From NCBI RefSeq assembly GCF_900176335.1, contig NZ_FWXW01000003.1:186001-250000 (forward strand): a stretch of DNA of 64,000 bases, read 5' to 3'. Below the pieces are notes generated by a model. That model saw only the letters and a list, made by a program, of their open reading frames with translations. It had not been told where the DNA came from and made no database searches. Numbering within the stretch: the first letter of the stretch is position 1; each line of letters begins with the position of its first letter. The position numbers were made by a program, and so were the translations under genes. Source of the stretch: Papillibacter cinnamivorans DSM 12816. Lineage in GTDB: Bacteria > Bacillota > Clostridia > Oscillospirales > Oscillospiraceae. Below, piece after piece: positions 16,523-63,917 of this stretch.

Positions 16523-16553
16523 AACCATCCCCCGGCCATGCCGGGGGATGGTT
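16523..16553 (+). terminator. Left terminator hairpin of element B
   Basis: A 14-bp perfect stem, AACCATCCCCCGGC with GCCGGGGGATGGTT, loop CAT, lies 48 bp after the M23 peptidase stop. The T tract expected after it is missing on this strand. Confidence 0.65.
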
Positions 16554-16761
16554 GAGACTGTCGAAAAACTCCGTTTTCCGACAGAAACGGGAGAAAGTTC
16601 GCGCCTTTGCGAAGGCGCACAAAGTATGCCTTGCGGAAAGTGAATTCCCGCAAGGCATTGGGATTTCATCTTTTGGAATTTCGGTCACGGAACGCAACGC
16701 GAAATCCAAAATAGCTTTTCGCCGATGGCGAAAAGGACGATGGGACTTTTTTGACAGGCTG

Positions 16762-16790
16762 AAACATTCCGGCAATGCCGGAGGATGTTT
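16762..16790 (-). terminator. Right terminator hairpin of element B
   Basis: AAACATCCTCCGGC, ATT, GCCGGAATGTTT on the minus strand, beginning 6 bp after the histidine kinase stop. It is similar to the left hairpin and can terminate the two-component operon. Confidence 0.65.
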
Positions 16791-20436: not shown

Positions 20437-20480
20437 AAATAAAAATACCGCACTGCAAACCGGACGGTGCAATGCGGTAT
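20437..20480 (-). terminator. Riboswitch-controlled attenuator of thiT
   Basis: ATACCGCATTGCA pairs with TGCAGTGCGGTAT around a 10-nt loop, followed by TTTTATTTT. It lies between the TPP aptamer and the thiT ribosome site, as expected for an expression platform that terminates when TPP is bound. Confidence 0.85.
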
Positions 20481-20495
20481 GAAGAAACAAGAACG

Positions 20496-20594
20496 CTCTT
20501 CCTACGCCGGCATTACCCGGATCAGGTTTAAGGGTTTAAAAGCTGCCATTTGCTTTCCTCTCAGCCGGAAATGACTTCCAGCACCCCTGTGTTA
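20496..20594 (-). ncRNA. TPP (thi-box) riboswitch
   Basis: On the minus strand the aptamer reads ACAGGGGTGC, then GGCTGAGAG, then ACCTGATCCGGGTAATGCC and GCGTAGGAA. These are the conserved core segments of the thiamine pyrophosphate riboswitch, in order and at normal spacing. It controls thiT through the downstream attenuator. Confidence 0.97.
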
Positions 20595-20624
20595 AGTTGT
20601 TTCGGTCTGAATACGGTTTAAACT

Positions 20625-49149: not shown

Positions 49150-49183
49150 AAAGAGCCGTCCCGCACAGCGAAGACGGCTCTTT
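49150..49183 (+). terminator. Left terminator hairpin of element C
   Basis: AAAGAGCCGTC with GACGGCTCTTT, an 11-bp stem ending in TTT, 40 bp after the membrane protein stop. Confidence 0.7.
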
Positions 49184-49386
49184 CAACCGCCGAAAGGCTT
49201 TGCCATTCGGCGGAGCAACGGGAGAAGGATCGCGTTTTTGAGAAAACGCGCAAAGTGTGCCTTGCGGAAAGTGAATTCCCGCAAGGCACCTGGATTTCAT
49301 CTTTTTCAGATTTTGGTCACGGAACGCAACACAAAATCTGAAAAAGCTTTTCGCCAGCGGCGAAAAGTACGAAAAGTTTTTGGAGA

Positions 49387-49427
49387 AATAAAGAGCCGTC
49401 CCGCACAGCGAAGACGGCTCCCTTTTT
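49387..49427 (-). terminator. Right terminator hairpin of element C
   Basis: GAGCCGTC with GACGGCTC followed by TTTATTT on the minus strand. It serves the SPFH gene ending at 49434. Its stem and loop are identical to the left copy. Confidence 0.75.
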
Positions 49428-62895: not shown

Positions 62896-63747
62896 CTAAC
62901 GTAGCAGGTCTTTCAGCTCTCTGTAATCCCGTTCTTCGTGCTTTTCTTCGGCCAAACTTACGAGAGAGCGGGAAAGCTCCCTGTAGATCGCCTCGTCGGA
63001 AGGGGGAATGACGGATAAGTGCCGCTTCACGGTAGCGCAGTCGCCCCGTTCCACCGGCCCCGTCAGGGCTCCCAGGATCCCTTTTTCCAGCACGTTGCGG
63101 ATGTTCGCCTCCATCAATGGAGACAGGGCGCGTATCGCGTCGCCCTCCTCAAATCCGCAGGATGCCAGATACCGGGCGGCCTTCGCCATGAGCGGCAGGT
63201 ACAAATTCGATACCGTCACATTGGCCAGGTGATAAAGGGCCTTGTTTTCCCCCGTCAGCCGGGTCGTCCGGTTGGGAAGCCGGGAAAAAACCTCTTCCAT
63301 CACCCGTTTATAGGCCGCGTCGCTTCCTTCCAAAGAAAAGTAACAGGTTTCCAGATTGCGATAAGACTGATACTTGTCCGAAATCGGACAGATGGGGTGG
63401 ATCGATATGGGTTCAACACCGAATAGATTTGTGGGTTTGAATACGTCCGCGGACATGCCGCCGCTCATATGGGCGACGATTCTCCCCTCCAGGGGGTATC
63501 GGGTCAGTTCTTCATACACCGGCCTCACGGAGGAATCGGGAGTGGTGATCAGGATCATGTCGCTCTCCCGTATCAAAGAGGGGTAATCCAGAAACACTTC
63601 CGTGGAAACGAATTCCGCGGCCGCCCGGCTGCTGTCCGGGTTCCTGCTCAAATAGCCTGCGATTTCGAGTCCGTGCTTCTTGAGATATTTGCCGAATGAA
63701 AAACCAACCTTTCCTGCTCCGATAAAGCTGATTCTTATAGTCTTCAC
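62896..63747 (-). CDS. Rossmann/DUF2520 protein, probable ketopantoate reductase (PanG-like)
   Basis: 283 residues from the GTG at 63747. The N-terminal Rossmann fold has ISFIGAGKVGFSFGKYL (NAD(P) site). The C-terminal helical DUF2520 domain includes LYHLANVTVSNLYLPLMAKA. It is the first gene of the panBCD operon, 18 bp before panB, and no panE is seen. PanG-type alternative ketopantoate reductases are, as I recall, of this architecture, so it likely supplies the missing reduction step. The GTG follows a weak AAGACAAGAG site. The open frame continues upstream without a ribosome site. Confidence 0.75.
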   Translation of the reverse strand: MKTIRISFIGAGKVGFSFGKYLKKHGLEIAGYLSRNPDSSRAAAEFVSTEVFLDYPSLIRESDMILITTPDSSVRPVYEELTRYPLEGRIVAHMSGGMSADVFKPTNLFGVEPISIHPICPISDKYQSYRNLETCYFSLEGSDAAYKRVMEEVFSRLPNRTTRLTGENKALYHLANVTVSNLYLPLMAKAARYLASCGFEEGDAIRALSPLMEANIRNVLEKGILGALTGPVERGDCATVKRHLSVIPPSDEAIYRELSRSLVSLAEEKHEERDYRELKDLLR

Positions 63748-63917
63748 CTCTTGTCTTATTCCGAGTTCTCGGATATAAGCAATTCGCCGGGAAATTTCAA
63801 ATCTATCGGTGTAGCTCCCTAGGGATGCCACCCGTCTATTAATAAATAACAGAATCGCTTTTAAAAAGCAAGGGAAATATTTGCGTTTCCAACAAAAAGA
63901 AGGGGCCAACGGCTTCT
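63748..63917 (-). other. Leader region of the pantothenate operon
   Basis: About 170 bp without a gene. A hairpin (GTGGC, AT, CCC, TA, GGG, A, GCTAC on the minus strand, 63811-63831) and a CCGAG/CTCGG hairpin near the start codon could be part of a structured 5' leader. The end of the stretch near 63896-63915 has complementary AAGAAG and CTTCTT, probably the terminator of the partial gene at 63918. Confidence 0.4.

Follow-up and report, generated by a model that had tools for sequence, protein, structure and literature searches.

A probable IS1182-type MITE of Papillibacter cinnamivorans that duplicates terminator-like hairpins and carries a conserved structured core

The genome of Papillibacter cinnamivorans (G000) very probably contains a MITE of about 205 bp with IS1182-type ends, which is moved in trans, duplicates the hairpin at its target and carries a conserved core maintained by selection. 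We document its copies, the hairpin duplication in most of them, the match of its ends, the covariation of its stems and the distribution of its core. The window analysed, a stretch of 64,000 nucleotides, has two copies, and both are present where a first-pass annotation had located them (16523-16790, with a partner at about 49150-49420), with five hairpins in identical order as it described. Across G000, 33 matches to the element DNA represent 29 distinct places with full copies or fragments, the remaining four being palindromic self-matches that were dropped. According to crude gene calls, 18 of the 29 copies are located between convergent genes. The element is too short for a transposase gene, and the reading frames that overlie it are taken to be chance ones. 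When its DNA was compared with 29 other genomes, all of other genera, the single match was a 28-base fragment in G005.

Copy 1 of the mobile element spans 16553..16761 (+), with the left end TGAGACTGTCGAAAAAC and a right end whose reverse complement is CAGCCTGTCAAAAAAG. Its hairpins, all on the plus strand, are H1 (16558..16584), which includes the left terminal inverted repeat; H2 (16601..16618), with the stem GCGCCTT/AAGGCGC; H3 (16626..16658), with the conserved tip AAGTGAATT; H4 (16671..16711), with the conserved loop GGTCACGGAACGCAAC; and H5 (16715..16735), whose stem sequence CTTTTCGCC/GGCGAAAAG is conserved. A terminator-like hairpin borders the element on both sides, as a duplicated left copy at 16523..16553 (+, AACCATCCCCCGG...GGATGGTT) and a right copy at 16762..16790 (+, AAACATTCCGG...GATGTTT); the former is a diverged direct repeat of the latter, with a score of 29 that 2 of 812 controls attained or exceeded. 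Copy 2 (49184..49389, +) has worn ends and its H1 is rewritten as CCGCCGAAAGG...TTCGGCGG; it lies between the left (49150..49183, +) and right (49390..49420, +) copies of a duplicated terminator-like hairpin. The 14-bp perfect stem previously described in copy 2 was confirmed as TTTTTCAGATTTTG/CAAAATCTGAAAAA, and its counterpart in copy 1 has one A.C mismatch.

On sequence grounds, the bracketing hairpins appear to be target duplications of host hairpins. The first-pass annotation had overlooked both this duplication and the mobility of the element. It had observed that they resemble each other, and they do so as a near-perfect 35-base direct repeat in copy 2 and a diverged 22-base one in copy 1, because the element would have duplicated the host hairpin as its target. 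A direct repeat holding the locus's own terminator-like hairpin flanks 18 of the 29 G000 copies with a score above 25, the 99% point of 812 cross-locus controls, six of which exceeded it. These repeats are 21-48 bases long, six of them are identical over 29-35 bases (L035, L036, L037, L044, L047 and L053), and the direct match is better than the inverted match in all 18; a clear duplication is absent in the other 11 copies. The highest control (85) was traced by eye to an unrelated repeat common to L040 and L056, a dispersed sequence (CTCCCGCCCTT...ACCACGAAA.GCTTCGCG...) in the downstream flank of the first and the upstream flank of the second. Replacement of the stem-loop, as in IS1272, was considered and rejected, since the target is not removed and a stem-loop stands on both sides in 18 of 29 copies. 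In 16 copies, the number of T per 10 bases after the hairpin is 2.4 for the left copy and 4.5 for the right, and that of A before it is 4.2 and 3.4, respectively; these counts depend on hairpin edges placed by a simple script, in some cases wrongly. The sequence after the left hairpin tends to be T-poor, as if the element had entered between the hairpin and its T tract. A fixed, non-mobile family of small-RNA genes with their own upstream and downstream terminators would also be intergenic, with a conserved structure and hairpins on both sides; we regard it as highly improbable, since the flanking hairpins agree within a locus and differ between loci, the ends match IS1182-type elements and 5-bp target duplications occur in another genus, as described below.

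IS1182-family insertion sequences (ISs) of related genera have the ends CAGNCTGTCGAAAAAC, which are near-identical to the element ends. In G000, 19 of the 29 left ends and 15 of the 29 right ends match at least 11 of the 15 fixed positions of CAGNCTGTCGAAAAAC, a level reached by 11 of 20000 random places; because the best of 80-95 offsets was taken for each end window, a chance match is expected in about one window in 20. The right ends of L034, a G000 element, and of the IS L108 have 19 bases in common. Three distinct IS1182-type ISs (L090/L104, L107 and L109, of which L107 and L109 were obtained by protein search) are each flanked on both sides by a copy of a whole palindrome, and the CAGNCTGTCGAAAAAC ends of L090, L107 and L109 directly adjoin the hairpin. 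The flanking palindromes are identical over 31 bases at L107 and 29 bases at L109; at L090 they have matching stems, with the two bases of the loop centre inverted. Among the 30 PF05598 loci examined, long repeats were seen at L090 alone. The L090 transposase, with 475 residues and DDE and DUF772 domains, scored 386 bits against NF033551 (IS1182, cut-off 270). Within the family, 25 of 81 genomes encode DUF772 transposases, and 20 of 250 have relatives of the L090 enzyme. No DUF772, IS1182- or L090-type transposase was found in G000 (99.11% complete), which means that one feature of a MITE, an autonomous partner in the same genome, was not seen there; such partners occur in other genera, and G243 has the core together with a transposase gene interrupted by three stop codons. 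The other features of a MITE of the IS1182 family are present: IS1182-like terminal inverted repeats, a target and target duplication as in the three autonomous ISs, and a short, multi-copy form without a transposase gene.

In the sections of Wan et al. 2017 (PMC5678879) available to us, IS1272, of the IS1182 family, inserts in stem-loops and removes them, new insertions have no target duplication, and a variant pathway is drawn in which the stem-loop would be duplicated. TnSha1, in the available part of PMC4923244, enters hairpins, several of which are terminators, with partial deletion. The element shares its end sequence and its hairpin or terminator targets with the IS1182-family ISs (L090, L107, L109 and IS1272/TnSha1), and has whole-palindrome repeats on both sides like L090, L107 and L109; unlike these ISs it has no transposase. 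Whereas staphylococcal IS1272 and TnSha1, by the same partial accounts (PMC4923244, PMC5678879), replace or partly delete the stem-loop, the element duplicates it, and together with the three ISs it fits the duplicating variant pathway as drawn in the available sections of Wan et al. 2017. At L225, L281, L283 and L090, the inverted match of the second hairpin is slightly better than the direct one, a possible trace of cruciform resolution. Simple gap filling does not predict flipped loops, and those of L090 and of L225, L281 and L283 hint at a hairpin or cruciform intermediate.

The structure between the ends was analysed in the 23 near-complete G000 copies, aligned over 216 columns (alignment A1, which excludes the six truncated copies L051 and L053-L057), with a fold model of five named helices and 58 pairs. 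Standard pairs fill 93.6% of the pair cells. Changes on both sides were found in 23 of the 58 pairs, compared with a mean of 8.1 in shuffled alignments, none of which reached 23 in 500 trials, and at most 9 in slid controls; the covariation score was 0.140, whereas shuffled alignments gave 0.083 (none of 500 as high) and slid ones no more than 0.084. Without guidance, RNAalifold recovered most of the five helices, with H1 drawn differently. Identity per column is 97% in the H3 loop and 90% in the H4 loop, averages 92% in the stems, falls to 74% in the H1 loop and 67% in the H5 loop, and is 57-79% in the end regions and outer linkers. The loops are therefore well conserved in H3 and H4, and not all loops are fixed. 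The contrast of varying stems around fixed loops is not apparent within G000, where stems averaging 92% are no more variable than the best loops, and is clear across genera. The proposal of a selected structure gains support from both data sets, as covariation exceeds the shuffles and the slid controls within G000 and across genera.

Regarding the strand of a possible RNA, A.C mismatches and G.U pairs on the plus strand number 40 versus 9 in G000, where four columns hold most of the A.C excess, and 21 versus 29 in other genomes; the more stable fold is that of the antisense strand in 21 of 23 G000 copies and in 27 of 40 elsewhere. An assignment from mismatches and folding energies was set aside because they indicate no consistent strand, and they were weighed neither way. 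By eye, an alternative pairing is conceivable between the 3' arm of H4 (GGCGAAAAA) and the 5' arm of H5 (TTTTCGCC), for instance at L220 and L224, which would make a switch between two folds possible.

A covariance model of the core was built and then rebuilt on 41 sequences. The first model found the core in 23 of 250 family genomes (E <=0.01), and the rebuilt one in 29 of 350 family genomes and 15 of 106 genera (E <=1e-4, own genome counted). Strong matches (E <1e-10) come from 16 of the 350 genomes, in seven genera, and family matches between 1e-10 and 1e-4 are mostly known by score alone; with up to eight candidates scored per genome, core copy numbers are to be read as "at least". In the order, 6 of 295 genomes have the core by the first model, and in the class 1 of 341, the element's own. 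A second family of the order (g151) gave two matches that were not counted as sure members, and of these L249 shows H2 and H3 and lacks H4 and H5. No Rfam 15 family reached its gathering score over the element, and over the core at the 15 of 40 homologous loci searched the matches were at chance level and below the gathering score; SRP and 6S RNA were found beside the core at homologous loci. Elsewhere in the window, Rfam identified a TPP riboswitch (20480-20598, -) and a pan motif (63747-63834, -). A scan with the pattern TTYGGTCACGGANCGCAAC gave 14 genome-contig and two viral matches, and the core was absent in the 10 of these 16 that were examined; a second nucleotide pattern matched no viral contigs, and blastn of the element against plasmids and phages gave no match. 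Retron msr-msd, integron attC, group IIC intron and CRISPR-like array were set aside on general knowledge.

The alignment of 41 cores (A6) combines six G000 copies with 35 from five other genera, and omits L194, L209, L219, L226, L228 and 17 of the 23 G000 copies; alignment A4 omits L194, L209 and L228. In A6, 92.3% of cells pair and both sides vary in 31 of 43 pairs (23.3 in shuffles, none of 500 reaching 31; slid <=24). The covariation score is 0.421, compared with 0.104 for shuffles and no more than 0.096 for slid versions, over which the margin is large. These figures are to be read with the knowledge that the alignments A4 and A6 were both made by fitting to a model of this structure, which favours it, and that control for relatedness is only partial. 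In H3, each of the 12 pairs has changes on both sides: the H3 stems are rewritten between copies, with the tip GGAAGTGAATTCC or a near variant kept in most and a different tip in some copies of genera g11 and g49. H4 keeps a loop of the GTCRCRC...CGCA type and H5 keeps its stem sequence across genera. The inner core is strongly selected for structure. Compensated stems could also arise by template switching in quasi-palindromes, one arm being copied onto the other with no selection, and many double changes are indeed private to one copy, the flanking hairpins also carry paired changes (L030, L033) and some loops are flipped. This process would correct all palindromes equally and fix neither loops nor linkers, whereas loops and linkers are conserved across genera while the H3 stems are rewritten, and A.C and G.U pairs are present (62 and 23 cells); we consider it improbable as the explanation.

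Among copies of other genera, L225, L228, L281, L283, L284 and L287 have the same architecture as those of G000. Excluding genus g104, 9 of 38 such copies reach the 99% point of 1406 flank-repeat controls: six, at these same loci, are hairpin repeats beside IS1182-like ends, with L225, L283 and L287 scoring above all 1406 controls, and the other three match through end sequence and not through a hairpin. By eye, L276-L279 (G565) have a hairpin on the right side only, as if insertion sometimes occurred beside or inside the stem-loop without duplication. In genus g104, the same core lies on different ends (GAATNATTTCGTTTG), and hence is not simply the inside of one transposon. The 5 bases outside these ends are identical in 5 of the 12 copies with both ends readable (seven others being unreadable), target duplications with a binomial P of 7e-13 that is optimistic, as the place was chosen after four repeats had been seen, the fifth (L292) coming later. 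A different element of about 190 bp, with a GTCGAAAAAC-type repeat at its end, was noticed by eye between two similar terminator hairpins at L010 (G005:C48, about 1320-1560); it is perhaps another MITE of the same kind, unrelated inside.

Copy orientation is constant within each G000 contig that has several copies (C12 9/9, C10 6/6, C9 3/3, C15 2/2, C19 2/2), which has a chance of 2^-17. Replication strand was rejected as the cause, since GC skew and coding bias disagree between contigs; C10 has a skew of -0.056 with minus copies and C19 of -0.057 with plus copies, in a comparison that sampled C9, C15 and C19 in part and left out C14. At tandem-gene sites there is no bias relative to the genes in G000 (5 sense, 4 antisense) or in g104 (3 versus 2). 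At the 22 loci outside g104, where gene calls are crude and L193 and L194 are one orthologous site, the upstream gene has the element's sense at 19 of the 21 where it was called, and the tandem sites comprise 12 sense and 2 antisense ones. At L224 and L226 the next frame overlaps the core; the L226 core is at the start of a gene that we take to be MurG-like. Three genomes of genus g34 have the core at one site (L193, L194 and L282, the last assigned from its flanks), and a presumably PurD-like gene starts about 20-30 bases further on. Two g11 genomes have a core copy after the SRP RNA gene, and the stems of the two copies differ by paired changes.

These data bear on whether the core hairpins act as DNA, by single-strand folding, as a cruciform at excision or in transposase binding, with the covariation reflecting selection for transposition alone. 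That would agree with a core that travels with transposon ends, with the lack of a consistent RNA strand and with the absence of gene-orientation bias in G000 or g104; in addition, for five copies whose target duplications are still identical, the nearest other copy is 4-11% divergent, which suggests that most change arose in donor lineages (or that the terminators are under selection). The need of one transposase does not, however, predict the same core on two unrelated end types, DNA hairpins do not require conserved loops such as those of H3 and H4, sense orientation is commoner at tandem sites of other genera, and the presumed purD site has the core in three genomes. On balance we think a role purely as DNA rather unlikely.

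For the trans-moved MITE that we favour, an IS1182-family transposase would act in trans on the element ends, and insertion into a hairpin would proceed through a cruciform intermediate, gap filling then leaving one full hairpin on either side. If the target were a bidirectional terminator, each outer hairpin would retain its own T tract; transcription should therefore continue to terminate on either side, with little damage from the insertion. The interior is a conserved four-hairpin core, which selection maintains across genera and which can ride on at least two kinds of ends. This core may act as a structured 3'-UTR RNA, through read-through from the upstream gene, a function that we infer, given strand-neutral mismatches and no orientation bias in g104 or G000. 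More tentatively, and with slightly less than even confidence, the core could be an undescribed family of mobile structured RNA, riding unrelated transposon ends, landing at terminators and functional in trans or in cis. Within the range searched, it would occur almost exclusively in a single bacterial family; genes would read through into the core without losing termination, and the loops of the core would be kept for function.

In the accessible portions of the literature on IS1182, terminator-targeting MITEs and clostridial structured repeats the element is undescribed, and it may exist there as an unnamed catalogue motif; the parts available of PMC3852290, PMC10969869, PMC8040213 and PMC2267715 gave no account of it. 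Judged from their descriptions in the accessible part of PMC10969869, ERIC, Correia/NEMIS, BOX, SPRITE and QMITE2 are likewise short, multi-copy and intergenic, with stable hairpins; in contrast to these, the element has several hairpins, covarying stems and two loops conserved across genera and, compared with the MITEs described there, it duplicates a whole terminator-like hairpin and has its core on two end types. REP elements as IS targets, in the portion available of PMC1525189, similarly tie insertion to palindromes, but REP targets are one repeated sequence and those of the element are unrelated local hairpins.

The ISs and the small element provide natural examples of stem-loop duplication, the result that Wan et al. 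2017 sketched and did not observe for IS1272. They suggest that a transposon can make safe sites of terminators by duplicating them. The conserved multi-hairpin module, which occurs across genera on differing transposon ends, opens to direct test the question of what small mobile elements contain besides those ends.
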